From IMG/VR virus record IMGVR_UViG_3300040801_001541, positions 1 through 36,978 of that record: a DNA stretch of 36,978 bases. One strand, 5' to 3'. The notes beneath the pieces are model-generated. The model saw nothing but the letters and a program-made list of their open reading frames with translations. It was not told the origin of the DNA and ran no database searches. The DNA is from a virus. This document shows, piece by piece, positions 7,635-31,613 of this stretch. Each line of letters begins with the position of its first letter. Position 1 is the first letter of the stretch. Both the position numbers and the translations under genes were made by a program.

Positions 7635-8073
7635 CACCTGGGCGGTGCTTACCGGCATTCGCGACTACTTCAAGGGCGCGGTTCCGACGTCGCTCGCGAA
7701 GATCAGCGTGACGGACACCGTCAACACCTGGGGCGTGGGTTGGGAGAATCCCTACTCGCTGAACCGGTACGACGGGGTCCTGTTCGTGGCTGGCAACCGT
7801 GAGCGAAACGAGGACGAGGCGACGCTCGAGCTCCCGATCGACATCTATGTGGCGATTCTCGGGCGAGAGGTGACTGACGTAAATCGACGAGTAATGGCGT
7901 ATCTCGACGCCATAGACGATGCATGGGAGGCGGACCCGTCTTTCGCCGGGAACGTATTCACGAGCGAGATCAGGGACGTCGACTATGCGGACCCGGAAAC
8001 GTCCGGGGGAGTGAAGGGGGTGGCGATCGTATCGCTACTCGCTGAGCTCGATACGCTCGCAGGAGGAGTGTAA
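7627..8073 (+). CDS. Tail terminator-like protein
   Basis: The 148-residue product starts at GTG 7627, inside the previous gene, with GAGGAGG a few bases upstream. It reads FDTWAVLTGIRDYFKG, then an alternating beta pattern with VTDVNRRVMAYLDAIDDAW, and ends with GVKGVAIVSLLAELDTL. This alpha/beta pattern, length and location directly before the major tail protein fit siphovirus tail terminators, which cap the tail tube and join it to the head. Gene order carries much of the call. The stop and the next ATG overlap as TAATG. Confidence 0.7.
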   Translation: MFDTWAVLTGIRDYFKGAVPTSLAKISVTDTVNTWGVGWENPYSLNRYDGVLFVAGNRERNEDEATLELPIDIYVAILGREVTDVNRRVMAYLDAIDDAWEADPSFAGNVFTSEIRDVDYADPETSGGVKGVAIVSLLAELDTLAGGV

Positions 8074-8738
8074 TGGGTAAGCGACTGAGCGGGACGCGAA
8101 ACTATCTGTGGATCGCGGCCCTTGGAACGGAAGTCGTGGGGGACGGTACTACCGCGCTCGCCACGGAGGGATTCTACAAGATCACGGCGGTCGCCTCGAG
8201 CGGCAGCGCATGGCCGACGAACGCGGTCGTGGGCGACGTCGTGTACAACGGCACCGGCGGCGGAGCGATCACCCCGGCGGTCGGCGACGACGCGAAGCCG
8301 ATGACGCTGACGAAGATCGCCTGGGTCACCGACATCCCGAACTCCGCCTCGAAGGAGAAGTTCGAGGACACGGTGCAGATCGACGACGCGCGGAGCTACG
8401 AGGAAGGTGACAAGCCGGAGATCAGCGGAAGCTGGAACGGCTACTTCTTCAGCGACGACGCGGACGCGCTCACGGTCCTGAAGCGGTTCTTTACCGTGAC
8501 CGAGGACGACGGCGCGGGGTCGATCACGATCTCGAACCCGACCACGGGCGTGATTCACACGTTCCTCGGGCGCAACGAGACGACCACGAGCGGCGAGAAG
8601 AACATCATGCAGTACCTGCCGGTGATCCTCGACAACTGGCAGGGCGACAAGCCTATGCAGGGGAAGCAGACGTTCACCTGCAACTACACCGCCGTCGGGT
8701 CCGAGCGGCCGGCGTTCTACATCCGCACCGTCGCGTAA
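8073..8738 (+). CDS. Major tail tube protein
   Basis: The 221-residue protein begins MGKRLSGTRNYLWIAALGTE and has a middle segment EEGDKPEISGSWNGYFFSDDADA, the reading typical of phage major tail proteins that stack as hexameric rings. The last third, YLPVILDNWQGDKPMQGKQTF, continues the beta-barrel pattern. Residues about 25-85 (GDGTTAL through AWVTDIP) look like an inserted Ig-like or Gly/Thr-rich loop. It overlaps the terminator-like gene by one base and precedes the tail chaperones, the classical order. Confidence 0.88.
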   Translation: MGKRLSGTRNYLWIAALGTEVVGDGTTALATEGFYKITAVASSGSAWPTNAVVGDVVYNGTGGGAITPAVGDDAKPMTLTKIAWVTDIPNSASKEKFEDTVQIDDARSYEEGDKPEISGSWNGYFFSDDADALTVLKRFFTVTEDDGAGSITISNPTTGVIHTFLGRNETTTSGEKNIMQYLPVILDNWQGDKPMQGKQTFTCNYTAVGSERPAFYIRTVA

Positions 8739-9554: not shown

Positions 9555-12273
9555 CGAACTGAAGATCCTTGTCAAAGCCGAGGTCGACAAAGCGGTCGCA
9601 GACCTGAAGCGCGTCGACGGGTCGATGACGCAGACCGGAAAGAGCGCCGGAAACGCAGCAATGTCGTTCGGCAAGGTCGCCGGCGCCGTGGGCGGCGCGG
9701 TGCTCGCGATCCGGACGGCGATCAACGTCTCGCGACAGCTCGTTGACGCGTACCGGGTGCAGGAGCAGGCCGAGGCGAAGCTCGCCGGGGTCCTCCGGGC
9801 GACGGGAGAGGCAGCGGGGTTCAACTCGAGGCAACTCCGCGACATGGCGAGCGGTCTCCAGGGGCTCACCACGTTCGGCGACGAGGCGATCCTCGGGATG
9901 CAGTCGCTTCTGCTCACCTTCAAGTCCATCCAGGGCGAGGCTTTCGAGCGCACGACCGAGCTCGCGCTCGATCTCTCCGCCGCATTCGACCAGGACCTCA
10001 AGAGCTCCGCAATGCAGCTCGGCAAGGCGCTCGAGGACCCGGAACGCGGGCTCACGGCGCTCCGCCGGGTGGGCGTCTCCTTCACCGAATCGCAGGAGGA
10101 GATGATAAAGGGGCTCGTCGAGGCCGGCGAGCTCGCCGAAGCGCAGGGCATCATCCTCGACACGCTCGAGCAGCAGGTCGGAGGCGTCGCGCAGACCATG
10201 GCGGCGACAGCGACCGGCGAGCTCACGCAGCTCACGAACGCGCTCGGCGACATGCGGGAGCGAGGCGGGAAGGCAGTCCTCGACTTCGGTCGGCCGTTTA
10301 TCACCTGGCTCCGCGACGTCGTGACGGAGAGCAACGATGCCGCCGCGGCGCTCGACAACCTGAAGGCGGCACTCGCCGCAGACGTCAACCCCAGCAGTGG
10401 CGAGTTCGACATCGATGCGGCGATCGAGACGCAGCAGGAGCGGATTGCAGCGGCAGAGGTGGAGCTCGAAACGCAGCGGGAGCTTGCGGCCGCAATGGTT
10501 CGCCAGGGCAGAATCAGTGAGGCGACCGCGGAGCAGAGCGTCCGGATGCGTGAGAACACGATCCGGAATCTCCGCGATGAGCTCTACGAACTCGAGCGCC
10601 GGAAGGCCCAGCTTCGCGCGGAAGCGAAAGCCGTGCAGGAGGAGCTTGATCGGCTCGAGGCCGAGCGACTGGAGCGCGAGGAGGCGGCACGCCGGCAGGC
10701 GGCGGTCGATCAGGCGTTCACCGATGCCCGGTCTGTGGTCCTGGGCATTCTGGAGTCGGAGAAGTCCGAGCGCGACAAGATCATCGAGCAGATCGAGTAT
10801 CTCGAGGCTCATCCGTGGGCAGCGGGGTCGCCGCAGGAAGCTGATCGACTGGAAGCACTTGAGATCCTGACGGGCAAGCTCGAGGACATAGCATGGGCTG
10901 CCGTTCTGGCAGATCACTCGCTGCGGGCCATGTCCTCGGGCCTTGCTGGGGCAGCGTCGGAAGCCAGAGATCTGTTCGACGCGACCGCCTGGGATGATTC
11001 GGTGTTTGGAGGCGGCGAGACGACACCGATGCTTGATCTCACGGGATTCGCCGAGGCTTTCGAGCAGGGATATACCGACGTAATGGAGGTCGGGGAAGCC
11101 TGGCGCGAGTGGGAGGCAGAGCAGGAGGAACTCCGTCTCGCGCAGTCGCTCGCGATGTACCAGGAATACTACGACGCTCGGATCGCGGCGGCGGAGCAGA
11201 CAGTATCGGCCGAACAGAAGATTCTCGACGAGTTCTCCGAGAATGTCCGAGACATCTTCGACGACGACATGCTCGCTCGTGCATTCACTGGGGCGATGAC
11301 AGAGATGGGGCGAGCGATCGCGGATGGCACCGACGCTATGGACGCCATGGGTTCCGTGCTCGCGAATGTCGCGTCAGACATCCTTGGTCAGATCTCCATG
11401 TATGCGACGCTCGCCGCGGTGAAAGTTGTAGCGATGAGTCCCAACCCTCTCGCTGCTATTCCGCTTGCTGTGGGTTTGCTCGCAATAGCTGGCGTTACTG
11501 GCATTGCCTCCGGCTTCATCGGAGCTACCGGCGGCGGCGGAGGCCCGGACACGAGCTGGGCCGAGCGTATCGTCGCCGCGGAGGAGAGCGCAGCGGAGAA
11601 ACGGCTCGAGATCATCCGCGATCAACTCGAAGATGAGCGGCGGATCAGAGACGAGCACCTGGCAAAGCTCGAGAGCTCGTTCAACCAGGAGTTCGAGATC
11701 CTGCGCGATGCCTGGGAGCGAAACCTCATCTCGACCGAGGAGTTCCGGGCCGGGATGGGCGATCTCAACGCGGAGCACCAGGCGGGCGTGGAGGAGGCGA
11801 ACGAGCCGGTCGTGGCGCTCGAGACTGAGCAGGACAAGATCGAGAAGCAGCAGGCTGCGCTGGAAGCCGCTCGGACGACGAAGCTGCAGGCGCTCGCGCA
11901 AACCGCGCTTGCTCTGCAGGAAGAGCTCAACGGTATGTCGGGCTGGGACAAGTTCTGGAGCGGCAGGGACGAGGAGATCGTCAAAGAGCTCGACGCGCTC
12001 GATCGCCGTCGGCAGATCGTCGAGACAGCTACCGACATGGAGACGATTACCTCCGCGGCGAAGGGAGCCAACTTCCTCACCTCCGGGCCGGAGCTCCTGC
12101 TCGTGGGCGATAACGCGAGCGGCCGGGAGCACGTCATGGTGAACCCGGCGCCAGGCGCCGGCGGTATGGGCATTGCGATCAACATCAACGCGCCGGTCTA
12201 CGGCATGGATGATCTGTACGAGAAGCTCGAGGAAGCCGGTCGTCGGCTGCAGCGCAGGGGGCGAGTCGCATGA
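9544..12273 (+). CDS. Tape measure protein
   Basis: The 909-residue protein sets tail length, fills the tail tube and helps DNA entry. The N-terminal part has AVGGAVLAIRTAINVSRQLV and KLAGVLRATGEAAGF, with the LQGLTTFGDEAILGMQSLLL pattern common in tape measures. Residues about 290-390 are long Glu/Arg-rich coiled coil. About residues 620-660 form a hydrophobic Gly/Ala-rich region (LAAIPLAVGLLAIAGVTGIA), the membrane-active part, and the last 200 residues are again coiled coil with ANFLTSGPELLLVGDN near the end. The relatively short length predicts a tail of roughly 130-140 nm by the usual 0.15 nm per residue rule (inference). Confidence 0.93.
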   Translation: MANDELKILVKAEVDKAVADLKRVDGSMTQTGKSAGNAAMSFGKVAGAVGGAVLAIRTAINVSRQLVDAYRVQEQAEAKLAGVLRATGEAAGFNSRQLRDMASGLQGLTTFGDEAILGMQSLLLTFKSIQGEAFERTTELALDLSAAFDQDLKSSAMQLGKALEDPERGLTALRRVGVSFTESQEEMIKGLVEAGELAEAQGIILDTLEQQVGGVAQTMAATATGELTQLTNALGDMRERGGKAVLDFGRPFITWLRDVVTESNDAAAALDNLKAALAADVNPSSGEFDIDAAIETQQERIAAAEVELETQRELAAAMVRQGRISEATAEQSVRMRENTIRNLRDELYELERRKAQLRAEAKAVQEELDRLEAERLEREEAARRQAAVDQAFTDARSVVLGILESEKSERDKIIEQIEYLEAHPWAAGSPQEADRLEALEILTGKLEDIAWAAVLADHSLRAMSSGLAGAASEARDLFDATAWDDSVFGGGETTPMLDLTGFAEAFEQGYTDVMEVGEAWREWEAEQEELRLAQSLAMYQEYYDARIAAAEQTVSAEQKILDEFSENVRDIFDDDMLARAFTGAMTEMGRAIADGTDAMDAMGSVLANVASDILGQISMYATLAAVKVVAMSPNPLAAIPLAVGLLAIAGVTGIASGFIGATGGGGGPDTSWAERIVAAEESAAEKRLEIIRDQLEDERRIRDEHLAKLESSFNQEFEILRDAWERNLISTEEFRAGMGDLNAEHQAGVEEANEPVVALETEQDKIEKQQAALEAARTTKLQALAQTALALQEELNGMSGWDKFWSGRDEEIVKELDALDRRRQIVETATDMETITSAAKGANFLTSGPELLLVGDNASGREHVMVNPAPGAGGMGIAININAPVYGMDDLYEKLEEAGRRLQRRGRVA

Positions 12274-15182
12274 GCACTCGGACGGTGAAGCTCCAGTTCC
12301 CGGGAGACGCGTCGTTCACCGACGTCTCGCACCTGGTCGTCGACGGATCGATGAGTGAGTTCCGGCGCATGATGAACGACAAGCGTCGGAGCGTCGTCGA
12401 CACCTACTCCTTCCGCCTGAAGCACGACCAGGACATCACCGACGCATTCGCGAACGCAACCGACAAGATCTGGTGCACAGTCGATGATGGAGCGACCCGG
12501 GAGTTCACCGGCTGGATCGCTCCGACCGACTCCTTCACCATCGATCAGCGCGTGGGACCGCGGTCTGTCGAAGCGCTCGACATGAGCTACCTGCTCGACG
12601 AGCCGATCAGCGCGAGCGTGCAGTACCCGGCGCTCGTCACTGACCCCGGGTTCAAGATCCTCGACAAGGCCGACGCTCCGAACTCGATCGTGCACCAGCT
12701 TCTCACGCTCGCCGGCTATGATCCGGCGGTGTACATCGACTCCGGGTGTCCGAACATCACGACGAGCGTTGACTCGGTCACCGCAGAGGAGGGCGCGGAG
12801 ACCTATCGCGACATCCTGGACGACCTGCTCAGTGAGTACGGCTACGTTCTGTACTGGACCGCCGGCGGGAAGTTCAGCGTCCACCAGTGGGACCACGACA
12901 CGGTCACCGTGAGCGAGACGATCTCCTCGTTCGGAACGGCTCGTGGGCTGCAGATATCGAAGGTCGAGACGGAGAACGACGGCGCGGAGGTGACCTGGGC
13001 GGAGCTCGACGTCATGCAGGACGCGCTGCTCTACCGGGACAACCTGCCGATCTCGTCCACCGCTGGGTCGGTGGAGTTCACCGGGGAGCCGATCGGGGCG
13101 GGTGACTACTACCCGCCGGACTCGGACATCGAGGACCAGTATCAGCGGTTCCGCACGCGCTGGCTCGATCTGCCGTATCTGAGGCGCGAGACCAGGCTCC
13201 AGAACCAGGACCTCTCCCTCGTCAACACGAGCGGGCACGCGATCGCGTTCACAGCGGACGCGGGAGTCGCGATCTCAACGCAGGTATTCGAGCCGAATCG
13301 GGCGCGGGTCAACTTCCGCAACTCGGCCGGGTCCACGGAGAGCATCTACACGTTCGAGATCACCGGAGACGCGCTCTATCGCTCGTCGGTGCGCACGACC
13401 ACGGTCCCGGTCGCCTCCACGAACCCGGAGAAGTACACGTCGCGGTTCATTTTCTCCGACGCACACGCGACCAGACTCTCCACGGCGCGGAGCCGCATGC
13501 TTCGGTTCGGGAACTATCACTACGACTTCGAGCTCCGGCACAAAGTGGAGCCCGGAGCGATCGTCGAGCTCTACCAGGAGCGCGACAACCTCACGCCGAT
13601 CCAGACGACGGTCATCATCCTCGAGCGCCGGAAGAACCCGCAGCGCCCGATGTGGACCTATCGCGCGCAGGCGATCACCGCCTATTCGTCGGAGGCTGCT
13701 CTGAAGGTCGGGATCGGCGCGCCGAACACCGCCGCGCAGGACGCGCTCACCGAGGCGCAGATCGGTGTCACCCCGACCTTCGACGACCTCGACAACGGCT
13801 ACACCGCGAGCACCGGCGGGACGACGACGCCGACACAGCCGGTTCTCGCCGGCGTGGGGCTCTACCTGGGCACGCGGATTGCATGGGATCGGCAAATCAA
13901 CCTCACGAACCTATCCCACTACGAGATTCTCGTCTCGCCCGACGGCGGTACGACGTGGTACGAGCCGGTCGACGGCGGGACGGGGCTCGGGACGCAGGAT
14001 CCCGGAGACTGGACCGCGGCGCTCCATTGGCCGGCCGAAATGTTCGTTCATGCCGATCTACCGCTCGGGGGAACGGCCGAAGATCCCACGCCGAGCGCGT
14101 GGACGTACAAGGTTCGCCGGGTCACAAAGCAGAACGACGTGAGCGCAGCCTCGAGCACGATCACCGTCAACGCGTCGCCGGTAGCGAACGGCACGCTCGC
14201 CAAGGACGCGATTTCGACGAACCTTCTCAACGCCGTGATCGCGAACATCGCCGACCGGCTCACGATCTCGAGCGGTACCGGGTTCACGTCCACGGCGCTC
14301 ACGACGACCGGCGGTGAAACGCGCGGGTACCTGGATCTCGACGAGGTAGCGGTCCAGAAATACACGACGACCATACCCGGATGGGGCACACTCGCCCGGC
14401 TCACTGTAGAGAACCCGACGGCGATCGACGGCACCGGCGTGCTCGAGCTCAACGAGGGGAGTCTCGTACCGGTCAACACGACCGACGCGCGGCTCCGGGC
14501 GACCGGGAAGTCGCTCACGCTCCAATCGTGGGATGGCACGAGCGCATGGGTCGATCAGATCAAGCTCGGCTCGGTCGATGCGGCGGGGGATGCGCGCTCT
14601 CAACTTTCGGGGCGCGTCTACGCCGGCGAGATTCGGCTCGATTCTACCCTCTACGGCATCGGGTCGAACTACGGATTCATTGGTAGTCAACTCGCGATGC
14701 ACGTTCTGGAAAATGCCTACTACGACGGGTCGTGGAAGCGGATCGCGAACCGAAGGGCGGCATTGATTCAGACGCAAGCCGAGTCAGATGTTGCTATCAA
14801 GGCGCTGATCGCCGAGTCGGGCGCGGCTGACAGCACTATCACATGGATAAACCAATTCGCGGTACGGAGGTTCCAGGGTAACTACGACTCGACGGTTGTC
14901 GACGTGGGCGTGAACGGTAGGTTGATCGACATCGACAACGGCTCCTCAGTCCGGAATATGCACATCGCCACCAATCTGTACCACGATGGGACGGCTTGGC
15001 GATACGTAGCGTCAGCAGGCGGGGCTTTAATGAACATGACGCCGGACGGTTCAATTGGATTCTACACAGTCCCAAGCGGCACAGCCGGGGCGACAGCTTC
15101 CCCAACCGCGAGGATAACGATAGCACAAAACGGCGACCTCACAGCACCAAACGGCCGCGTGTTCGGCGCCGTGTTCAACTGA
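12270..15182 (+). CDS. Tail tip / central fibre protein
   Basis: The 970-residue protein starts in an ATGA overlap with the tape measure. Its N-terminal half (about 1-480) is beta-rich with SFRLKHDQDITDAF, VEALDMSYLLDEPIS and a YRDILDDLLSEYGYVLYWTAGGKF module, resembling siphovirus tail-associated hub proteins that sit below the tube. About residues 500-640 look like a fibronectin III-type domain (ILVSPDGGTTWYEPVDGG with W/Y spacing). The last 300 residues are beta-repeat fibre-like (DGTGVLELNEGSLVP and similar), probably the receptor-facing part. Base composition becomes less GC-rich toward the 3' end, as is common in host-range segments. I do not recognise a closer family. Confidence 0.75.
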   Translation: MSTRTVKLQFPGDASFTDVSHLVVDGSMSEFRRMMNDKRRSVVDTYSFRLKHDQDITDAFANATDKIWCTVDDGATREFTGWIAPTDSFTIDQRVGPRSVEALDMSYLLDEPISASVQYPALVTDPGFKILDKADAPNSIVHQLLTLAGYDPAVYIDSGCPNITTSVDSVTAEEGAETYRDILDDLLSEYGYVLYWTAGGKFSVHQWDHDTVTVSETISSFGTARGLQISKVETENDGAEVTWAELDVMQDALLYRDNLPISSTAGSVEFTGEPIGAGDYYPPDSDIEDQYQRFRTRWLDLPYLRRETRLQNQDLSLVNTSGHAIAFTADAGVAISTQVFEPNRARVNFRNSAGSTESIYTFEITGDALYRSSVRTTTVPVASTNPEKYTSRFIFSDAHATRLSTARSRMLRFGNYHYDFELRHKVEPGAIVELYQERDNLTPIQTTVIILERRKNPQRPMWTYRAQAITAYSSEAALKVGIGAPNTAAQDALTEAQIGVTPTFDDLDNGYTASTGGTTTPTQPVLAGVGLYLGTRIAWDRQINLTNLSHYEILVSPDGGTTWYEPVDGGTGLGTQDPGDWTAALHWPAEMFVHADLPLGGTAEDPTPSAWTYKVRRVTKQNDVSAASSTITVNASPVANGTLAKDAISTNLLNAVIANIADRLTISSGTGFTSTALTTTGGETRGYLDLDEVAVQKYTTTIPGWGTLARLTVENPTAIDGTGVLELNEGSLVPVNTTDARLRATGKSLTLQSWDGTSAWVDQIKLGSVDAAGDARSQLSGRVYAGEIRLDSTLYGIGSNYGFIGSQLAMHVLENAYYDGSWKRIANRRAALIQTQAESDVAIKALIAESGAADSTITWINQFAVRRFQGNYDSTVVDVGVNGRLIDIDNGSSVRNMHIATNLYHDGTAWRYVASAGGALMNMTPDGSIGFYTVPSGTAGATASPTARITIAQNGDLTAPNGRVFGAVFN

Positions 15183-15191
15183 GGAGGATGG

Positions 15192-15653
15192 ATGGCAGTA
15201 GTTGGATACAAGATCATGGGCAGCTCAGATTACGACTCCGCGGTGACGTACAACACGACGATGGCATACCTCGCCAACTGGTACTTCATCGGTTCAGTGC
15301 TGATCATCAACACGACGTCCACGTTTTTCGGAAAGGACCTCCGCATATTTCAGCGCGACTCAGCGGATTCGTTCTGGAGTCAGAGATATGCGATAACCGG
15401 CACGGCCGCCAACACGTTGAAGATATACCGGCACACATATGGCGGCCGTCCGATGTGGCTCTTCCAGAACCACAATAACGTAGAGTCACCGACTATCAAC
15501 ATCCAGGTTATTGGGCACGGACGAGAGGGGAGGAAAGTGTACTACTGTGCCGCTTCTCCGCCATCTCATACCAGCAAGCCAAACGACTATTACAAGAGTA
15601 ACTCCGGGCTGTCGATCACGGCGGGCCGGGGTCGGAATCTGTGTGACGAATAG
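15192..15653 (+). CDS. Putative tail fibre-associated protein
   Basis: The 153-residue product has the beta-rich, aromatic and Asn/Thr-rich composition of a receptor-binding or fibre-tip protein (YDSAVTYNTTMAYLANWYF, IYRHTYGGRPMWLFQNHNN). It follows the tail-tip gene after a strong GAGGAGG site and uses noticeably more A/T at third positions than the structural genes, suggesting recent exchange. An ATG at 15188 in another frame gives only a shadow. No family is recognised. Confidence 0.6.
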   Translation: MAVVGYKIMGSSDYDSAVTYNTTMAYLANWYFIGSVLIINTTSTFFGKDLRIFQRDSADSFWSQRYAITGTAANTLKIYRHTYGGRPMWLFQNHNNVESPTINIQVIGHGREGRKVYYCAASPPSHTSKPNDYYKSNSGLSITAGRGRNLCDE

Positions 15654-15663
15654 GGAGGAAACC

Positions 15664-15942
15664 ATGAAGGCAACAATCGAAGGCATCGACTACGACATCG
15701 CGGGGCTCTCGCAGTTCGACCGGCAGTTCTACCTACGGGCAGATTTGCAGACCGTCCAGGCGCTCCGCACGGCGACCGAGGGTAAGGGGATCGTGACGAT
15801 TCTGATCACCCGAAGCGACGGTACCACGGTCGAGGCGCAAGGGCTCTATCAGAGCTCGCAGACTGACCTCGACGAGAACCAATCGACCGGGCAGGCGGCG
15901 TACTTCATGACCTCGCCTATGGTTGTGGGGGTGGTATCGTGA
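15664..15942 (+). CDS. Small tail-region protein, unknown
   Basis: The 92-residue product starts at ATG 15664 after GGGAGGAAACC. It reads MKATIEGIDYDIAGLSQFDR and then a VTILITRSDGTTVEAQGLYQ segment; the alternating hydrophobic pattern suggests a small beta protein. The upstream extension of the same frame is not coding-like. It sits between the fibre-associated gene and a coiled-coil gene and probably belongs to the tail tip. Its stop overlaps the next GTG as GTGA. Confidence 0.65.
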   Translation: MKATIEGIDYDIAGLSQFDRQFYLRADLQTVQALRTATEGKGIVTILITRSDGTTVEAQGLYQSSQTDLDENQSTGQAAYFMTSPMVVGVVS

Positions 15943-16112
15943 CAACCGGAGAACGCAAGGTGGCCCTCGAGCAAGAGCGTGATCAAATCCTCGCCCACAT
16001 CCAGCAGGCGCAGCAGCAGTTCGAGGCCATGAAGAACCGGCTGAATCAGATCGTCGGTAAGCTCGAGCTACTCGCCGAGATCGAATCGCAGGAAGGGCAG
16101 GGCGAAGTGTGA
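15939..16112 (+). CDS. Small coiled-coil protein
   Basis: This 57-residue frame starts at GTG 15939, overlapping the previous stop, and ends at TGA 16110-16112, again overlapping the next start. The sequence is almost entirely helical and Gln/Glu-rich, with heptad spacing from about residue 6 to 50 (ILAHIQQAQQQFEAMKNRL). The chain of overlaps on both sides makes it a believable gene. It could act in tail-fibre assembly or serve as a small accessory of the lipase-like gene that follows. No family is recognised. Confidence 0.65.
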   Translation: MTTGERKVALEQERDQILAHIQQAQQQFEAMKNRLNQIVGKLELLAEIESQEGQGEV

Positions 16113-16666
16113 CCGAAACCGTCGACCTCGCGAACATTCGGGTACACGTCTCCCGCAACCTCCGCGGGATGCTCAGGATCCACGTCGAGGGCTCCGGGCC
16201 GTTCGTGCAACGGCCGATGCGGTTGAACGATTGGCTACGGACGAACGCGCTCGCGTTCATCGTGGTCGGCGTTCACCTGGGCTACCTCGTCGCCGCGATC
16301 CGCGTACTCTGGCGATTCCGGCACGAGATCCGCGCGGCGTCGTGGGTCACAATCACCGGGCACTCGCTCGGCGGGGCGACCGCAGAGGTCGCGGCGGTAC
16401 TCGGGTCGGTATTCCTGGGCGGCGGGATCCGCGGCGAGAGCTACGGCGGGCCGGCTCCCTGGTGGTTCGTGACGTGGCCGCTCTGGTGGCTCGTCTCGAA
16501 GGTCGCAGGGGCCGAGCTCGCATGGTACGTCGCGGGTGGCGACCCGGTGCCGCTGCTTCCGTTCTTCTGGAATCGGCACCTGGGACAGCGACACTGGATA
16601 CACGGCACCGGCGACGGGCCGATTGCGGATCACGTACATGGATACGATGCGCTGATCGAAGCGTAG
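16109..16666 (+). CDS. Class 3 lipase-like alpha/beta hydrolase
   Basis: The 185-residue protein begins at GTG 16109. It shows WVTITGHSLGGATAEVAA at residues 79-96: the nucleophile elbow GHSLGG of Lipase_3 enzymes, with Ser86. Further on are GESYGGPAPWW (110-119), GGDPVPLLPFFW with the candidate acid Asp145, and late His residues in HWIHG and HVHGYDALIE for the third triad position. The order matches class 3 lipases, whose substrates are lipid esters. It lacks the N-terminal sequence of a secreted enzyme, so it would act in the cytoplasm, on the virion, or after holin opening. Its place between fibre and lysis genes suggests an envelope-directed esterase, comparable in role to LysB of mycobacteriophages, though not related by sequence as far as I can judge. 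Confidence 0.72.
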   Translation: MTETVDLANIRVHVSRNLRGMLRIHVEGSGPFVQRPMRLNDWLRTNALAFIVVGVHLGYLVAAIRVLWRFRHEIRAASWVTITGHSLGGATAEVAAVLGSVFLGGGIRGESYGGPAPWWFVTWPLWWLVSKVAGAELAWYVAGGDPVPLLPFFWNRHLGQRHWIHGTGDGPIADHVHGYDALIEA

Positions 16667-16689
16667 GCGAGTTCACTGGGAGGGGAACG

Positions 16690-17325
16690 ATGCCAGAATG
16701 GGTATGGATACCGATCACAGTAGTAGGAACCGGGGTCATCATCGCGATCGTCCTCATGATGTGGAAGCGCGGCGGGACGCTGGGGATCGGGAAGAATACC
16801 TTCGTCCTGCACGGCGATGCGAAGAACCCGAAGAACCCGCTCGCGAAGGCGCTCCGTTACGTCCCTGAGAACATCGGGCAGGTGACGAGCCTGGTCTACT
16901 CCGGCTACCTCAAGATCGTGAAGAGCAAGGGCGTCGAACCTGCGGTCATGACCGACATCGAGGACAGCAAGTTCGCTCGCTCAGTGATTCGCAACGCGAC
17001 GAGCCTCGGGAACGGGTCGAACAGCGTCCAGAAGATCATCGAGAACGATATTGCGAATCGCGACTACGTCGGGCACGACATCGAGCAGTACGTCCACGAC
17101 ATCGTGCTTCCGAAGGTCGTCGACTCGATCAGGAACACGATCAACTCCGAGTACGATACGGTCGCGCGGTACGCGGAGCATTCCGACCGGCAGCGGATCG
17201 TTACACAGGCGGAGTTCGTAGACATGCTTTCGGAGCCGCGGTTCCAGCACGATCTCGCGCACGCGATCCTGCCGTTCTACCGGTTCGCGGCGCGGTGTCT
17301 CAGCGACGGGTGCGTCGACATATGA
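16690..17325 (+). CDS. Membrane-anchored protein of the lysis region
   Basis: The 211-residue product starts at ATG 16690 after CTGGGAGGGG. Residues about 4-24 (VWIPITVVGTGVIIAIVLMM) form one transmembrane helix, followed by a Lys/Arg-rich boundary and a soluble helical domain of about 180 residues with several Asp/Asn-rich loops. No enzyme motif is visible. The stop overlaps the M23 peptidase start (ATATGA). It may anchor or regulate lysis proteins at the inner membrane, but that is inferred from position. The domain is unfamiliar. Confidence 0.65.
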   Translation: MPEWVWIPITVVGTGVIIAIVLMMWKRGGTLGIGKNTFVLHGDAKNPKNPLAKALRYVPENIGQVTSLVYSGYLKIVKSKGVEPAVMTDIEDSKFARSVIRNATSLGNGSNSVQKIIENDIANRDYVGHDIEQYVHDIVLPKVVDSIRNTINSEYDTVARYAEHSDRQRIVTQAEFVDMLSEPRFQHDLAHAILPFYRFAARCLSDGCVDI

Positions 17326-18008
17326 GATACCTGCTCGAGGACCTGCTCCAGTGGCTCGCGATCAACGATCCGGCGAAGATGCCCTACTGGCCGGGTGCAC
17401 ACTACACCGGCGGCGTGGGGTTCCGTGAGTCGCGCACGCTGCTCGAGCTCGGCGCCTCTCCGATCCACCTGGGGGTCGATCGTGCCGGCGGCGGGCGATT
17501 CACGACGCCGTTCGACGGTCGCGTGAAGTGGTCCATCGTGGGCGGCGCCGCGGGGTCGCTCCTTCGGATCATTGCCGACGATCTGAGCCTCGAGCTCCAG
17601 GTGTTCCACACCGAGGCCGAGCCGTATGTCGAAGCGATCGATCTGTTCATGCGGCAGGGCGATCCTCTCCCGGTGAAGCCCGGGGACCTCGGGACATCAT
17701 CCGGCGTGCATACGCACACGGAGGTGCTCATGCCGCACACGCCGGAGCTCCGCGACTGGCTCGCCGGCGACTCGCCTCCGATCATCCGAGACGGCATGCT
17801 CGATCTCTCCGACCTCCTGGTGCACTGTGACCGGCACTACCTGGACTCGTGCGACGTGGTGAGACGAGTGAACGCCCAGGTGCGCGGATGGCGGATTACC
17901 GAACTCTGGCCGCACTTCGGAGCCCGCGCGGCCCTGCCTGAGTACCGGCGTCCGGGGTGGGAGGGGCCGACGCTCCACATCGATAGTCACTGGCTGCTCA
18001 AGATCTGA
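17322..18008 (+). CDS. M23-family metallopeptidase (likely endolysin)
   Basis: The 228-residue protein has the zinc-binding layout of M23/lysostaphin peptidases: HLGVD at 49-53 (H-x3-D), a single His at 96 and HTH at 130-132 inside SGVHTHTEVLM. TPFDGRVKW and GDLGTSSGVH fit the strand before each motif. These enzymes cut peptide cross-links in murein. No signal peptide or transmembrane helix is present, so export would need the holin-like protein encoded next. The order membrane protein, peptidase, holin-like, spanin-like makes this the probable lysis cassette. The C-terminal 90 residues after the active site (LVHCDRHYLDSCDVVRRVN and onward) are not part of M23 and could be a wall-binding domain. 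Confidence 0.8.
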   Translation: MRYLLEDLLQWLAINDPAKMPYWPGAHYTGGVGFRESRTLLELGASPIHLGVDRAGGGRFTTPFDGRVKWSIVGGAAGSLLRIIADDLSLELQVFHTEAEPYVEAIDLFMRQGDPLPVKPGDLGTSSGVHTHTEVLMPHTPELRDWLAGDSPPIIRDGMLDLSDLLVHCDRHYLDSCDVVRRVNAQVRGWRITELWPHFGARAALPEYRRPGWEGPTLHIDSHWLLKI

Positions 18009-18022
18009 GAGAGGAGGATACG

Positions 18023-18244
18023 ATGAAGACCATCACGAAGCTCGTCTACCTGGCGATCCTGGTCGTGGTTGCTGCGGTGCCGATCATCGTCTGGGCGCGC
18101 TCGCCCGGGGAGATCGATCTCTCCGGTGTCGGTGCGTTCGCCGCGGGGCTCGGTGTTCCGATGGGGACGTTGACCGCGGCGATGGCCGCGCGGGCGATCA
18201 GCCGCGACCAGGCGGCGAAGAGAGGCGGAGGCGATGCGACGTGA
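18023..18244 (+). CDS. Holin-like small membrane protein
   Basis: The 73-residue protein has one clear transmembrane helix (about residues 8-26, LVYLAILVVVAAVPIIVWA), a short loop, and a second Gly/Ala-rich hydrophobic stretch (about 35-58). It ends in a basic RDQAAKRGGG tail, the charge pattern of many holins. It directly follows the M23 peptidase after GAGAGGAGG and precedes the spanin-like frames. The call rests on topology and position; it has no sequence motif that would prove a holin. Confidence 0.7.
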   Translation: MKTITKLVYLAILVVVAAVPIIVWARSPGEIDLSGVGAFAAGLGVPMGTLTAAMAARAISRDQAAKRGGGDAT

Positions 18245-18734
18245 GGCGTGGCGCGCGGTCGCTCTGGTTGGGCTCGGCGCTGCTCTTGCTCTCGGCGGTT
18301 TGTGGCTTCACAGTCGATCGCAGTCCGGCGACCTTGCCGAACGAGCTCGCGCGTATAGAGAGTCTGCTGAGCAGCTCGCTCGTGATCTCGAGGACGCTCG
18401 AGATGCGGCTCGAAGAGCGGACGCGACAAGTAGCGAGCTTGCAGAGTCGCTTGACCGTGCTCGAGCAGACGAACAGCGAGCAGTCGACCGAGCTCGTCGC
18501 GCTGAAGAACGAGCTCGCGACAGCCTTGCACGAGCAGAGCGAGCTGAGGAGCGAGCTCGAGACCTGGCAGAGCAGGTCCGATCGCTGGAGGAGCTTGGCG
18601 GCGCAATTGCGGATGGAACAGGCGGCGATCTCGATCTCGCTCGCGAGCTCAGCGGCAACCTCGATCAGGCTCTCGCGCGACTTCGCGAGCTACAAGCAGG
18701 CGTCGGAGGCGACGATTCTCGCGCTCCGGATTGA
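18234..18734 (+). CDS. Overlapping i-spanin-like frame (alternative to 18241-18831)
   Basis: The 166-residue frame starts at ATG 18234 and overlaps the neighbouring 18241 frame for almost its whole length. It encodes an N-terminal hydrophobic segment (about residues 8-24) followed by a very regular Arg/Glu/Ala coiled coil, the architecture of Rz-type inner-membrane spanins. Its third positions are less G/C-biased than those of the 18241 frame, and the spacing from GGAGG to ATG is only two bases. A coiled-coil gene in one frame tends to create Ala/Arg/Glu runs in another, so this may be a shadow. It is kept because nested spanin genes are a known arrangement. Confidence 0.35.
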   Translation: MRREAWRAVALVGLGAALALGGLWLHSRSQSGDLAERARAYRESAEQLARDLEDARDAARRADATSSELAESLDRARADEQRAVDRARRAEERARDSLARAERAEERARDLAEQVRSLEELGGAIADGTGGDLDLARELSGNLDQALARLRELQAGVGGDDSRAPD

Positions 18735-18831
18735 AGTGTGGGTGTACCGCGGCGTCGCGATCGGGGCCGCTGGGTACGGACTCTACCGGCTCGGAGAGTG
18801 GCTCCTGGAGTCGGTATTCGCGCCTCCATGA
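18241..18831 (+). CDS. Coiled-coil membrane protein, spanin-like
   Basis: The 196-residue protein starts at GTG 18241 in a GTGA overlap with the holin-like gene; GGAGG lies nine bases upstream, a good spacing. Residues about 7-25 form a hydrophobic signal or anchor (LWLGSALLLLSAVCGF), followed by a long coiled coil to about residue 150 and a final amphipathic or membrane segment (VYRGVAIGAAGYGLYRLGEW). Third positions are strongly G/C-biased, so this is the better coding frame of the two. The Cys after LSAV is not in a standard lipobox. The layout fits a spanin that bridges both membranes, which would imply a Gram-negative-type envelope, but that is tentative. Confidence 0.6.
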   Translation: MRRGARSLWLGSALLLLSAVCGFTVDRSPATLPNELARIESLLSSSLVISRTLEMRLEERTRQVASLQSRLTVLEQTNSEQSTELVALKNELATALHEQSELRSELETWQSRSDRWRSLAAQLRMEQAAISISLASSAATSIRLSRDFASYKQASEATILALRIEVWVYRGVAIGAAGYGLYRLGEWLLESVFAPP

Positions 18832-18865
18832 CCGTCTCCAATCCGTCGAAACCGAGCGCGTTCAA

Positions 18866-18885
18866 TTTGACCCATTTTTGACCCA
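18866..18885 (+). repeat. Left arm-type direct repeats of attP
   Basis: TTTGACCCA occurs at 18866-18874 and again at 18877-18885, 11 bases apart, about one helical turn. The same motif appears as a pair right of the core (19098-19116) and once inverted at 18909-18917 (GGTCAAAAA). Paired copies on both sides of an att core are what lambda-type integrases bind through their N-terminal arm-binding domain. Confidence 0.75.
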
Positions 18886-18958
18886 GCCGACCTCTCGGTT
18901 CCGTTGCAGGTCAAAAACGTAGTGTCGATAGGATGCAGGAGAAGCCGAAAACGGCACT

Positions 18959-18979
18959 ATTGCAACGTCATTGCAACGT
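18959..18979 (+). repeat. Direct repeats ATTGCAACGT next to the att core
   Basis: ATTGCAACGT is present at 18959-18968 and 18970-18979, also spaced 11 bases. Its core reversed (CGTTGCA) is found at 18902-18908 and 19089-19095. The set lies between the left arm repeats and the tRNA-derived core, so an excisionase or bending protein is a plausible ligand; that is inference. Confidence 0.6.
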
Positions 18980-18988
18980 TAAAGGCTG

Positions 18989-19030
18989 TTCGGGACCGAG
19001 AGGTCGGCAGTTCGAATCTGCCCAGCCCGA
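18989..19030 (+). other. attP: attP core: 3' fragment of a tRNA-Pro(CGG) gene
   Basis: TTCGGGA (18989-18995) reads as an anticodon loop with CGG. It is followed by variable-loop AGGTC, T-stem GGCAG (19006-19010), T-loop TTCGAAT, CTGCC and the 3' acceptor strand CAGCCCG with discriminator A at 19030. Bases before 18989 do not pair with the anticodon stem, so only the 3' part is here. It would restore the host tRNA on integration. No CCA follows. The integrase gene starts 125 bases downstream, the classical arrangement. Confidence 0.88.
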
Positions 19031-19069
19031 CTTTAAACCCCTACAGAGTAACGAGTTACGAGATGCAGA

Positions 19070-19100
19070 CGAGCCGCCATGAGCGGCTCGTTGCATTTTT
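19070..19100 (+). terminator. Rho-independent terminator-like hairpin after the tRNA fragment
   Basis: CGAGCCGC (19070-19077) pairs with GCGGCTCG (19083-19090) around loop CATGA, followed by TTGCA and five T residues. It could be the host tRNA terminator carried within attP, or it could separate the lysis operon from the integrase gene. Confidence 0.7.
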
Positions 19101-19116
19101 GACCCAGATTTGACCC
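19098..19116 (+). repeat. Right arm-type direct repeats of attP
   Basis: TTTGACCCA (19098-19106) and TTTGACCC (19109-19116) repeat with the same 11-base spacing as the left pair. The second copy contains the -35 hexamer of the integrase promoter, so integrase bound here would block its own transcription (inference). Confidence 0.75.
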
Positions 19117-19154: not shown

Positions 19155-20444
19155 ATGGAGAAAACCTACGTCGTGGGGAGCAGGGAGTTCCGTCTCTGGC
19201 TCTATCGTGGTTACTGGTACGCTGTCTGGCGGGACCCCGCCGGGAAGAAGCGGAAGAAGACGCTCAAAACGAAGCGCCGCGACGTCGCGGAGGCGCGGAT
19301 CCCGGAGCTCGCTGAGCAGCTCGACGCGGAGACGCGGCCGACCTTCGGGCAGTACGTGGACCGGCTCCTCGAGGAGGGCGACGAGTACCTCTCCCAGCGC
19401 GGTCTCACCGAGCAGACGGTCTACGCGAAGAAGCGCTGCATCGAGATCCTGAAGAAGCAGTTCGGCTCCGACGTCCTGGGCGAGACGCGCGAGGCGAACA
19501 TCGAGAAGTGGCTCCGGATGGGGAAGTACGCGCCGAGCTACCAGGGCGAGATCATGGACGCGTACAAGTTCGTGATGCGCCAGGCGAAGCGGGACCGGTT
19601 CGACGTGCAGATCCCGGAGTTCTACCGGCCAGATCGGAAGGTGACGCGGCGCTCGTCGCTCGAGCCGGAGGAGGTCCGCGCGCTCTTCCCGGATTCGATC
19701 GAGAAGATCAGCGCACTCTACGAAGAGGACGAGGACGGCCACGGGGTCATGTTCGGGCTACTCTACCGGACGATTCTGCACGCGGGGCTCCGCCCAGGGG
19801 AAGGTCGCGCGATCGGGCGGCACCAGCTCTATCTCGACGATGGGGTGCTCGTCGTCTCGCGCCGGCTTGGACGCCACAACGAGGTGCTCGAGCTCAAGAA
19901 GCGAAAGTACGGCGACTCGGACGTGTTCCGTCTCGTCCCGCTCCCGGATCGGACGGTAGAGCTCCTGCGATGGTGGATCGAGACGACCGAGCCGCAGGAC
20001 TTCCTCTTCCTCTACCATGGGGAGCCGGTTCGACAGCGGTACATCTCGGAGCGGTGGGCGAAGGCGCTCACGCGCGTTCGGATCGGCCCGGAGAAGAAGC
20101 CGTTCGAGCTCGCCGGTCGGAAGATCGACGTCCAGGCGCTCCGCGTGACGTACCGCAGCATGACCGAAGGATGGCTCCCGCGTGCGTTCCTTCTCGGCGC
20201 GATGGGTCACCGCTCAGCGGACGTGCACGACGGGTACCTCCGGCACCTCGAGCGACAGGTCCAGGCGGTCGGGAAGCATCGCGGCGAGACGAATGAGGCG
20301 TGGACACTCGACCATGGAAAGGCAACGCGCGTAGACCGCACAAAAAACAGTCGCGATCAGACAGGCCCTTCTCCGAGAATAGAAGACGGGGGAGGCGAGG
20401 CTCATGAGCAAGTACACGGAGCGGCATTTCGAGGAGAGGGATAG
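19155..20444 (+). CDS. int: Tyrosine recombinase integrase
   Basis: The 429-residue protein starts with an arm-binding AP2-like region (WLYRGYWYAVWRDPAGKKRKK, about residues 15-60), then a SAM-like core-binding domain (about 62-160), then the catalytic domain. Catalytic positions are Arg213 in HAGLRPGEGR, Lys in the 249-251 region, Arg330 in VQALRVTYRS, His352 in MGHRS and Tyr361 in DGYLRH, with normal spacing. The HxLR histidine is Gln327 here, an unusual replacement, though some integrases vary at it. The gene faces away from the att core and probably drives integration into a tRNA-Pro gene. The last 45 residues are low-complexity and overlap the next gene by 41 bases. Confidence 0.92.
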   Translation: MEKTYVVGSREFRLWLYRGYWYAVWRDPAGKKRKKTLKTKRRDVAEARIPELAEQLDAETRPTFGQYVDRLLEEGDEYLSQRGLTEQTVYAKKRCIEILKKQFGSDVLGETREANIEKWLRMGKYAPSYQGEIMDAYKFVMRQAKRDRFDVQIPEFYRPDRKVTRRSSLEPEEVRALFPDSIEKISALYEEDEDGHGVMFGLLYRTILHAGLRPGEGRAIGRHQLYLDDGVLVVSRRLGRHNEVLELKKRKYGDSDVFRLVPLPDRTVELLRWWIETTEPQDFLFLYHGEPVRQRYISERWAKALTRVRIGPEKKPFELAGRKIDVQALRVTYRSMTEGWLPRAFLLGAMGHRSADVHDGYLRHLERQVQAVGKHRGETNEAWTLDHGKATRVDRTKNSRDQTGPSPRIEDGGGEAHEQVHGAAFRGEG

Positions 20445-21519
20445 TCTCCAGCGGACAAAGCACCATCTGCTCGAGGCATACCTCAATGCGTGGTATCCCA
20501 TAATGTCGTCCCGCAACCGGCGGATCGCAATCTTTGACCTCTATGCTGGCAAGGGACGGTTCGAGTCGGGTGAGCCGGGGAGTCCACTCGTCGCGTTGAA
20601 CACGCTTCTTGCGCACTCTCACCTGCCGACCATGGTGATGCAGACTGAGTTCAGGTTCTTCTTCGTCGAAGCGGATCCCGAGAGCGTAGAATCATTGGAA
20701 CGATCGGTTGAGGATGCCAAGCAGGACGATGGGTTCCCGGGCGACCGGATCAGTATTGACGTGGTCAATGCGGACTCCGAGGAAGTGCTCGCCGCGCTAA
20801 TCGAGCGATACGACGGGACTGCCTACCGTATCGCTCCGTCATTCTTTTTCATAGATCCCTTTGGCTTCAAGCTTCACGCCGAGCTATTTCGCCGAGTACT
20901 CGCGCTCCCCCGAACCGAGATCCTTCTGACGTTGATGTGGCGCCACGCGAACATGGGCAGGGCTCTGACGCATCGTGCGCCAGGCATGATTGACACTCTC
21001 AGTGGGCTGTTCGGGGGACCGGACTGGACGAGCCTCAATGATCCGGCCCTCGATGATGAGCACAGGGCAGACCTGGCGACCGACATACTGGGGCGTAACC
21101 TTCATGTGAAGTGGACCACCTCGCTGAAGCTGCGAGACCAAAGAGGTGGGATCAAGTACTGCCTTGTGCACTTCACCAATCACGATGCAGGGCGACAGAA
21201 GATGAAGGATGCCATTTGGCACATTGGCCCTAATGATCATTGGGTGTGGCGTGCCAAAGATGCTCCGGACAAAGGCCTCGAGCTCGATCTCGACATCGGT
21301 ACTGATCCGGTGGAGAGTTGGCTCGTCGACCAACTCAGGGATGGGCCGAAGACGAAGGAGCAGCTCTATCGAAGGCTACTCGGAGCCTACTGGAAGAGAT
21401 CTACGCTGCACGATGCATTGAGAGAGCTCTGCAGAAAGAATGAGGTTCGCGTCATCCCGCCCCAGCCGCATGACAAGATCAAGCTGAAGCGAATCAACCT
21501 GATAGAGCTGGTCGACTAA
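20404..21519 (+). CDS. tcmP: Three-Cys-motif partner protein (TcmP)
   Basis: The 371-residue product matches the TcmP family: TKHHLLEAYLNAWYPI near residues 18-33, IFDLYAGKGRFESGEPGSPL at 43-62, FFFVEADPES near 85-94 and PSFFFIDPFGFK at about 145-156. The DLYAGKG and IDPFG motifs resemble class I SAM-dependent methyltransferase folds, but the biochemical role of the family is unknown. A C-terminal winged-helix-like part (about 300-371) contains KEQLYRRLLGAYWKRSTLHD. These genes are usually paired with DUF5131, as here. ATG 20404 has GGGGGAGG upstream. A/T-richer codons than the surroundings suggest separate acquisition. Confidence 0.85.
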   Translation: MSKYTERHFEERDSLQRTKHHLLEAYLNAWYPIMSSRNRRIAIFDLYAGKGRFESGEPGSPLVALNTLLAHSHLPTMVMQTEFRFFFVEADPESVESLERSVEDAKQDDGFPGDRISIDVVNADSEEVLAALIERYDGTAYRIAPSFFFIDPFGFKLHAELFRRVLALPRTEILLTLMWRHANMGRALTHRAPGMIDTLSGLFGGPDWTSLNDPALDDEHRADLATDILGRNLHVKWTTSLKLRDQRGGIKYCLVHFTNHDAGRQKMKDAIWHIGPNDHWVWRAKDAPDKGLELDLDIGTDPVESWLVDQLRDGPKTKEQLYRRLLGAYWKRSTLHDALRELCRKNEVRVIPPQPHDKIKLKRINLIELVD

Positions 21520-21552
21520 ACGCTTGTATGGTAGATTGCACGGGGGCATGAG

Positions 21553-22275
21553 ATGAAGAACAGCAAGATCGAGTGGACTGACTCAACCTGGAACCCGATT
21601 ACCGGCTGTGACCACGTGTCCAACGGCTGTGATCACTGCTACGCAGAGCGCATGGCGGAGCGCCTCCAGGCGATGGGGAGTCCCCGCTACCGGGACGGGT
21701 TCAAGCTTACCATTCACGAGGATCTTTTCGACGCTCCGCTGCGCTGGACCAAGCCGCGAACGATTTTCGTCAACTCAGTGTCCGACCTGTTCCACGAACA
21801 GCTTGATTTCGACGTTATTGATAGGATCTTCGATACAATGAATCGCGCCTCATGGCACACCTTTCAGGTGCTCACGAAGCGACCGATCGAGCTCATAAAG
21901 CACGGTGCGAAACTGAACTGGACGCCTAACATCTGGATGGGCGTAACAGTGGAGTCTGCTCGGTACACCCACCGCATTCAGGCTCTGCAGTCAGTGGATG
22001 CGAAGGTTCGGTTCGTGTCGTTCGAGCCACTGCTGTCCGCGATACCTGCCGACACCGATCTCTCGGGCATCGACTGGGCGATCGTCGGCGGAGAATCCGG
22101 TCCCGGTGCCAGACCAATGGAGGCTGAGTGGGCGCGTGGAGTCCGTGCCGTCTGCCGTAGATATGAAGCAGCGTTTTTCTTCAAGCAGTGGGGTGGAGTC
22201 AACAAGAAACGGGCCGGTCGCGAGCTCGATGGACGTCATTGGGACGAGATGCCTGAGGCCGTCGCCGGCGACTGA
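21553..22275 (+). CDS. DUF5131 (phage Gp37/Gp68) three-Cys-motif protein
   Basis: The 240-residue protein begins KNSKIEWTDSTWNPITGCDH, the hallmark of DUF5131, and contains Cys19, Cys26 and Cys29 (C-x6-C-x2-C), a cysteine set reminiscent of but not identical to the radical SAM CxxxCxxC. Other family motifs are FVNSVSDLFHEQLDFDVIDR, VLTKRPIELIK and GGESGPGARPM, and the C-terminal FFFKQWGG. The role is unproven; a metal or iron-sulfur cluster at the three cysteines is a reasonable guess. It lies 33 bases after tcmP and probably forms one transcription unit with it and perhaps with the integrase. Confidence 0.88.
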   Translation: MKNSKIEWTDSTWNPITGCDHVSNGCDHCYAERMAERLQAMGSPRYRDGFKLTIHEDLFDAPLRWTKPRTIFVNSVSDLFHEQLDFDVIDRIFDTMNRASWHTFQVLTKRPIELIKHGAKLNWTPNIWMGVTVESARYTHRIQALQSVDAKVRFVSFEPLLSAIPADTDLSGIDWAIVGGESGPGARPMEAEWARGVRAVCRRYEAAFFFKQWGGVNKKRAGRELDGRHWDEMPEAVAGD

Positions 22276-29846: not shown

Positions 29847-30424
29847 CCACGCGTCCCATTCTCATGAGCGGACCGATGGTCCGGGCGATCTTCGACGGGC
29901 GAAAGACGCAGACAAGGCGGGTGGTGAAGCCGCAGCCCGCTCAAGGGCTGTTGGGTCCGCGATCGGAAGACGGTCGGTGGATGATCGGTGGAGCCATCAG
30001 TCAGGTGATCGGAAGGTGCCCCTACGGCCAGCCTGGTGACCTGCTGTGGGTTCGGGAAACTCACTACGTCGCAGAAGGTATGAGAGTCATCTACCGGGCC
30101 GATGATCCCGACGCTTCGGTGCGTTGGACACCGTCGATCTACACGCCGCGATGGGCTTCCCGCCTGACGCTCCACATCACAGACGTGCGCGTGGAGCGGA
30201 TCAACACAATCACGGATGCCGAATGTCGCGCCGAGGGCATTCGACAATACGTGGTGTCGGGCCCGGACCCTGACGGGCGGAGCTACCAGGACTGGCGGAC
30301 GCCATTCAAGGAGCTATGGGATTCGATCAACGAGAATCGTGGCTACGCGTGGGAGAGCAATCCGTGGGTGTGGGTGATCGAGTTCGTGGCGATTCAGCGC
30401 AACGTGGACGAGGTGGCGACATGA
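29843..30424 (+). CDS. ASCH/PUA-like phage protein, copy 1
   Basis: The 193-residue protein begins with RPILMSGPMVRAIFDGRKTQ and TRRVVKPQP, then CPYGQPGDLLWVRETHYV, YRADDPDASVRW and a C-terminal ELWDSINENRGYAWESNPWV. This is the pattern of a widespread phage family (annotated as morphogenetic or ASCH-domain protein) in which the KTQTRR and GDxLWVRE motifs are shared. The ASCH/PUA fold suggests RNA or nucleotide binding; the function is not proven. A close paralogue lies at 35803-36387. The two are highly similar at the DNA level in the middle of the gene. Confidence 0.82.
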   Translation: MTTRPILMSGPMVRAIFDGRKTQTRRVVKPQPAQGLLGPRSEDGRWMIGGAISQVIGRCPYGQPGDLLWVRETHYVAEGMRVIYRADDPDASVRWTPSIYTPRWASRLTLHITDVRVERINTITDAECRAEGIRQYVVSGPDPDGRSYQDWRTPFKELWDSINENRGYAWESNPWVWVIEFVAIQRNVDEVAT

Positions 30425-31305: not shown

Positions 31306-31613
31306 GGGAAAGCGAGATGGAGACGGACAGGGTCATAGTACCGGTCGGCTGGATCAGCGCGAAGGAACTTCTCCCGGAACATCATCAAGCAGTCGTGTTC
31401 GTCGTCGACTCACCCGAGATTCCAGAGATCCACCGTTCGATCGCTGGCGGGTTCTTCTCGGCGAGAATATCGGCGTTCTTTGACTCTTGTGCAATGTATG
31501 AGTGGCGAGCGTCTCACTGGATGCCCGCTCCGCACCCGCCGTCGGAAACGCTGAAACCCTCCTCTGAGGCGGTTTCGCACCCCAAGCATGACATACTTGG
31601 TGGTATGACATGA
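31302..31613 (+). CDS. DUF551-like protein
   Basis: The 103-residue product starts in an ATGA overlap. It has VGWISAKELLPEHHQAVVFV and MYEWRASHWMPAPHPPSETL, matching the GWIS-x-K-x-LP beginning and the THWMP-PxPP end of DUF551, a family common in phages with no known role. The last 25 residues continue past the normal domain end, into the region of the repeated ATGACAT motif. Confidence 0.75.
   Translation: MRESEMETDRVIVPVGWISAKELLPEHHQAVVFVVDSPEIPEIHRSIAGGFFSARISAFFDSCAMYEWRASHWMPAPHPPSETLKPSSEAVSHPKHDILGGMT
31582..31611. repeat. Inverted and direct repeats at the recombinase start
   Basis: CCAAG (31582-31586) and CTTGG (31596-31600) form an inverted repeat with a nine-base centre, and ATGACAT occurs at 31588-31594 and 31605-31611, overlapping the ATG of the recombinase gene. 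The size is roughly that of a tyrosine recombinase core site, but arms are short and imperfect. Confidence 0.35.

Follow-up and report, generated by a model that had tools for sequence, protein, structure and literature searches.

Outer-membrane disruption at phage lysis is usually ascribed to spanins. Lipolytic enzymes have been described in this setting, too: LysB of mycobacteriophage Ms6, a serine esterase encoded beside the endolysin, is a mycolyl-arabinogalactan esterase, and the lysis cassette of a Pseudomonas syringae phage includes a GDSL-type lipase with C2-C10 esterase activity (both according to an excerpt of PMC12173070). The same excerpt states that the active site of the GDSL-type lipase is needed for the outer killing exerted by an endolysin-lipase fusion, and its authors propose that this lipase damages the outer membrane; a similar conjecture concerns a GDSL/SGNH lipase of Proteus phages (excerpt of PMC9229222). 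In the open-licence literature, we found no study in which a class 3 lipase of a phage is treated as a protein of lysis.

Class 3 lipases are present in 16 of 50,697 GenBank phage records (tblastn with a viral relative as the query), where they are already annotated and form a PHROG. In Burkholderia phage BgManors32 and Shewanella phage vB_Sb_QDWS, the lipase gene belongs to the late region and follows the gene of a GH19 enzyme. In phages P-SSM2, Cr-LKS4, and vir526, it lies away from the lysis genes, among genes for nucleotide metabolism or other non-structural functions.

The DNA analyzed here (the window) is an IMG/VR virus record of 36,978 bases, from which an ORF of 185 aa with a GTG start was read at 16109-16666 (+). 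Its product resembles the lipases of BgManors32 and vB_Sb_QDWS in being a compact phage lipase, and those two likewise occupy the end of the late region in their phages, with a GH19 endolysin-like gene upstream. The differences are that the window lipase has the elbow GHSLGG rather than GHSLGA, that it precedes the endolysin candidate instead of following a GH19 gene, and that it lacks the lipoprotein-like gene that precedes, and is coupled to, the lipase gene in those phages.

RESULTS

Gene call and surrounding genes

The features of the locus are collected in Table 1. The GTG start of the lipase ORF shares 4 bases with the stop of the ORF at 15939-16112 (+), and the two are likely translationally coupled. 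Codon-position GC of the lipase ORF (0.69/0.49/0.84) is like that of the phage's clear genes, with TerL at 0.62/0.42/0.87. 16109-16666 is a real gene for a class 3 (fungal-type) lipase/esterase.

Table 1. Features of the tail-lysis region of the window
Feature	Positions	Strand	Basis or remark
Long tail protein, encoded by the final large tail gene upstream of the lipase	12270..15182	+	3' of the tape measure gene
153-aa ORF after the tail gene	15192..15653	+	No confident family in Pfam/PHROG searches
92-aa ORF	15664..15942	+	No family match
57-aa coiled-coil-like ORF	15939..16112	+	Only sub-cut-off coiled-coil matches
Possible ribosome-binding site, purine-rich AGGAAGGG	16090..16097	+	11 bases before the GTG; by eye
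Class 3 lipase/esterase (Ser86, Asp145, His175)	16109..16666	+	Pfam, PHROG 21992, self-free profile, AF2 fold, invariant triad
211-aa protein with one N-terminal membrane segment, putative start of the lysis module	16690..17325	+	By eye; a membrane-anchored protein is encoded at this place in G001
M23-like endopeptidase candidate (endolysin)	17322..18008	+	HxGxD-type and HxH-type motifs by eye
Holin-like 73-aa membrane protein	18023..18244	+	Sequence and position
Spanin-like 196-aa protein	18241..18831	+	Hydrophobic segments at both termini with a coiled coil between them
Terminator-like hairpin	19068..19092	+	Closes the late operon before the integrase; 10-pair stem and T tract

The lipase gene is co-oriented with the tail genes and the putative lysis module, and only gene 16690 stands between it and the M23-like gene. 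An earlier note had placed it between tail and lysis genes, and it does lie there, with the lysis genes (16690-18831) being named by position, motifs, and synteny only. More specifically, the M23-like candidate at 17322..18008 gave no Pfam match and sits where the M23-like proteins of two relatives sit; the holin-like protein had no family over the cut-off in Pfam and PHROG searches; and the spanin-like protein had no PHROG match at 0.001, has codon-position GC of 0.59/0.51/0.85, as in real genes, and is matched by counterparts at the corresponding position of three relatives. A scan of 14900 to 19109 returned no promoter-like site on the + strand. The terminator-like hairpin is only suggestive, as one was found where 1.9 were expected in shuffled sequences.

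An ORF in another frame at 18234-18734 overlaps the spanin-like gene at 18241-18831 (+), and both have an N-terminal hydrophobic stretch followed by coiled-coil-like sequence. We favour 18241-18831 as the gene because of its codon-position GC and synteny; 18234-18734 is probably a shadow ORF (0.86/0.56/0.51).

Family and fold of the lipase

The match to Pfam PF01764 (Lipase_3) scores 22.9 bits against a cut-off of 22 and is thin taken alone, because it covers only the 19 residues from 79 to 97. Longer alignments were obtained with PHROG 21992 'esterase/lipase' (8.7e-8, residues 41-157) and, by phmmer, with the Gibberella lipase 3ngm (5.8e-5, residues 79-172). In addition, we built a profile from 21 viral class 3 lipases taken from the pattern-scan matches listed, leaving the window protein out. 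When run against the 643 stop-to-stop segments of the window, this viral profile found the lipase ORF at E = 5e-16 (54.1 bits), the next segment being at E = 1.6, and the best of 1000 shuffled window proteins reached 6.2 bits. The profile also matches fungal lipases, at ~1e-31.

The earlier note had read a Lipase_3 enzyme from GHSLGG with Ser86, GGDPVPLLP with Asp145, and late histidines that it did not specify. All of these are present in the ORF, and the histidine can now be named as His175: the complete triad Ser86/Asp145/His175 is invariant across 22 aligned sequences (the window protein and the 21 viral lipases), and the Pfam, PHROG, viral profile, and fold matches agree with the family assignment. 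Ser29 and Leu87 are presumably the oxyanion residues, on the basis of the alignment and of fungal-lipase numbering.

The AlphaFold2 model of the protein has a pLDDT of 86.7 and a pTM of 0.84. Foldseek returned the Rhizomucor lipase 4tgl as the best solved structure (5.1e-8), and VIA-align superposed the model on the Aspergillus and Thermomyces lipases (5xk2 and 6xok) with Z 14.7 and rmsd 3.3-3.4 over 170 aligned residues, residues 1-185 of the model lying on residues 50-268 of 6xok. The earlier assignment had been tied to the predicted fold, and in this comparison, which was of the overall fold, the model matches class 3 lipases at a Z of about 14. Among viral models compared by fold, the top named matches are giant-virus class 3 lipases, and one of the first ten comes from an uncultured tailed phage. 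Judged from sequence and model together, the product is very probably a class 3 lipase/esterase.

The protein thus shares with the PHROG 21992/PF01764 class its profile matches, triad, GHSLGGA elbow, and whole-chain fold, but departs from that class in several respects. It has only 185 aa and begins at about residue 50 of the Thermomyces lipase, and its N-terminus is ~15-20 residues shorter than in L027, L055, and other compact phage relatives. The strand before the oxyanion hole, FRG[ST] in the class and FRGT or FRGS in L027/L055-type relatives, reads VEGS at residues 26-29, which keeps the nearly invariant glycine and loses the Phe-Arg. Tryptophan makes up 11 of the 185 residues (5.9%), compared with 0.4-4.1% in the 21 viral relatives, and five of the 11 fall between residues 118 and 127. 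Such a Trp-rich patch would suit binding to a lipid surface.

Other identities were considered. A LysB was rejected, given that no LysB/cutinase profile matched, that Pfam, with matches taken up to E 1, gave only Lipase_3 and PGAP1, and that PHROGs gave only 21992. PADLOC returned no match that would assign the lipase a defence role, and toxin-type lipase families were matched in NCBIfam only at E 0.1 or worse.

Frequency of class 3 lipases in viruses

Searches with the window lipase alone found no close relative, whether by tblastn (50,697 records of phages and 72,556 of plasmids) or by peptide-pattern scans of viral contigs and genome contigs. Scans of this type with ORF 16690 and with the tail protein gave no match, nor did megablast of window positions 1-25000 against phages. 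A single narrow degenerate DNA pattern of the lipase matched at least 120 stretches in viral contigs, and 119 of the 120 listed encode a class 3 lipase-like ORF, defined as a nucleophile elbow with a downstream D.VP motif. The view that phage-encoded lipases are rare outside LysB is therefore not supported for viruses at large and holds only for cultured phages. The family was already known in viruses, and the window gene is another copy of these class 3 lipases. The nearest by sequence among the matches listed (L014) is 32% identical over 177 aa. Also among the matches listed, one cluster (that of L002, ~198 aa) makes up nearly half of the distinct viral class 3 lipases (46 of 96).

The lipase as an accessory gene

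A terminase search yielded 49 related viral contigs. In the closest relative, G001 (loci L160 and L171), the capsid protein is 80% and the terminase 81% identical to those of the window, and the long tail protein is 59% identical over 785 aa; there, a membrane-anchored protein is encoded directly 3' of the tail gene, with no lipase between them. Two further relatives, G008 and G011, carry the tail, membrane protein, M23-like, coiled-coil, and integrase genes in the order of the window without the lipase, the integrase being on the other strand relative to the window arrangement, and G013 retains part of the window's tail-lysis order.

The viral lipase profile, which matched the window, matched none of 18 relatives, the closest included, and neither the window protein alone nor PHROG 21992 matched any of 30; most of these relatives are fragments, and we regard the lipase as firmly absent only from those that include the tail-lysis junction, i.e., G001, G008, G011, and G013. 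By the gene content of these relatives, the lipase is an accessory gene that appears dispensable to the phage lineage. Since G008 and G011 share the order of the lysis module without it, the arrangement suggests that the lipase was added at the module's edge.

Genes near other viral class 3 lipases

Using our own ORF-calling script, we collected 106 ORFs of at least 70 aa and up to 3000 bases within ~3 kb of 16 of the 119 listed viral lipases, these 16 being the nearest to, and chosen for their closeness to, the window protein. A Pfam tally of these neighbourhoods, which has no background rate, counted nine cases of muralytic family members (Phage_lysozyme and GH19, two each; glucosaminidase, Hydrolase_2, DPBB_1, GH25, and Amidase_2, one each) and one holin. 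A muralytic gene is present in at least 8 of the 16 loci (L014, L055, L056, L078, L098, L099, L009, and L110), the GH19 match of L055 being below the Pfam cut-off and the match in L078 being a DPBB domain, and up to 8 of the 16 have no assignable one. Ten neighbours had been picked by eye, all but that of L027 for looking like endolysins; the Pfam tally involved no such picking.

L014, L098, L055, and L056 are the nearest to the window lipase by sequence among the matches listed, at low identity, and in all four a peptidoglycan hydrolase gene lies within ~2 kb of the lipase. The lipases of L027 and L119, on the other hand, sit among packaging or head genes. Muralytic genes near the viral class 3 lipases closest to this one are therefore best taken as a tendency.

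Host of the phage

In a genome collection, the terminase matched three loci, and all three named genomes belong to Spirochaetota: a Spirochaetota MAG whose matching contig has 64% GC, a Spirochaetia MAG, and a Treponema MAG. The GC content of the window is 63%. A relative of the protein encoded at 8073-8738 is present in 12 of 392 genomes of Spirochaetota, the only phylum searched with it, at 31-38% identity. Terminase and capsid matches in GenBank phages come from mixed hosts and are below 60% identity. Taken together, the sequence matches make a host in Spirochaetota likely.

Spirochaetes are diderms and are not known to have mycolates. The earlier note had named an outer membrane or a mycolate-like layer as possible targets. 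Because the terminase relatives are Spirochaetota in three of three named genomes, the host would be a diderm, which keeps the outer membrane as a plausible target and makes the mycolate-like layer unlikely.

The viral profile also matches lipases in 45 of the 392 Spirochaetota genomes. We fetched 20 of these loci and recovered 11 lipase ORFs by motif, of which the best scored 12.7 bits against the window protein, below the ~26 bits of the nearest viral lipases, and we therefore claim no host origin for the gene.

DISCUSSION

The position of the lipase gene is consistent with a role in lysis. It is followed by the genes of the membrane protein and of the M23-like, holin-like, and spanin-like proteins and by the terminator-like hairpin, and our preferred reading, to which we give an about even chance, is that its product is a non-secreted, envelope-lipid esterase released at lysis. 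The muralytic genes near related viral lipases, the late lipases of BgManors32 and vB_Sb_QDWS, and the precedent of the GDSL-type lipase of the Pseudomonas syringae phage speak for it as well. On this reading, the enzyme would be catalytically competent and made late, from a single transcript that also covers the tail genes and lysis module. No signal peptide is visible in its sequence, so the protein should remain cytoplasmic until the inner membrane is opened by the holin. It might then gain access to the periplasm and the outer membrane along with the M23-like endopeptidase and hydrolyse acyl esters in the glycerolipids of the envelope, allowing the cell and its debris to come apart. Such an enzyme would be LysB-like in its logic, as the lipolytic partner of an endolysin, while not being a LysB. 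What speaks against a role in lysis is that the gene stands on the tail side of the module, which would suit a tail-associated enzyme too. Further points against it are that the lineage can do without the gene, that the 17322 product is M23-like by motif only, that up to 8 of the 16 neighbourhoods have no assignable muralytic gene, and that the lipases of P-SSM2, Cr-LKS4, and vir526 lie away from lysis genes.

We also put forward, tentatively and with more doubt than confidence, a more specific version: in what is probably a spirochaete phage, a Trp-rich class 3 lipase without the N-terminal helix of its relatives would be freed at lysis and dissolve an LPS-poor, glycerolipid outer membrane, as a LysB counterpart in bacteria that lack mycolates, acquired as an optional cassette beside spanin-like genes.

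The tail-side position raises the alternative that the lipase is virion associated and sits at the tail tip with the products of the small ORFs 15192-16112, where it would breach the outer membrane or a capsule at entry. The gene is directly 3' of the tail genes and coupled to small ORFs that resemble a tail-end block, and it is this block that varies between relatives, much as host-range genes do. The protein itself is less accommodating: it is a free-standing, single-domain ORF whose fold takes up the whole chain, leaving no tail or fibre domain, and the lipases of its nearest relatives among the matches listed are also mostly free-standing. We regard a virion-associated enzyme as rather unlikely.

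That the lipase is a moron or an auxiliary metabolic enzyme, working on lipids of the host within the infected cell or the lysogen, is unlikely as well. Its accessory status and the lack of a visible signal peptide would fit such a function, as would the surroundings of the P-SSM2, Cr-LKS4, and vir526 lipases, but the window gene forms part of the late operon, with tail genes before it and lysis genes after it, and is not in the cargo block after the integrase. Finally, a decayed or non-catalytic hydrolase-fold protein, to which the shortened N-terminus, the change of FRGT to VEGS, and the poorly modelled residues 31-34 might point, is very improbable in view of the intact and invariant triad and GHSLGGA, the intact reading frame, the normal codon-position GC, and the high fold confidence.

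If class 3 lipases recur beside endolysins in diderm phages, they may represent an enzymatic alternative or aid to the spanins. Since spirochaete phages are little known (according to an excerpt of PMC11144348, a single Treponema prophage had been characterised in earlier work), a lipase linked to lysis in such a phage would, if true, be a useful handle. Should the gene be merely another accessory lipase, the analysis still annotates it firmly and corrects the picture of their frequency in viruses.

Several other features of this phage genome were observed. A two-gene pair at 20404-22275 (+), beside the integrase, matches both parts of PADLOC PDC-M30, with 9.7e-32 for A and 6.8e-106 for B, and PDC-M41B (1.3e-109) and Pfam DUF5131 are matched by the second gene as well; the pair is likely phage-borne cargo, by its profile matches a candidate defence system of the PDC-M30 kind. 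The phage has two integrase genes, at 19155-20444 and 31610-32452 (+). The gene at 32786-33613 (+), far from the late lysis module, encodes a second peptidase that is clearly of the M23 type (Pfam, 6.2e-27) and has a membrane segment, and a similar peptidase is found in G001, upstream of the terminase. A PHROG 874 gene occurs twice, at 29852-30415 and 35812-36378 (+), 6 kb apart, and the copies share 82% DNA identity across 581 alignment columns, reflecting either an internal duplication or a double acquisition.
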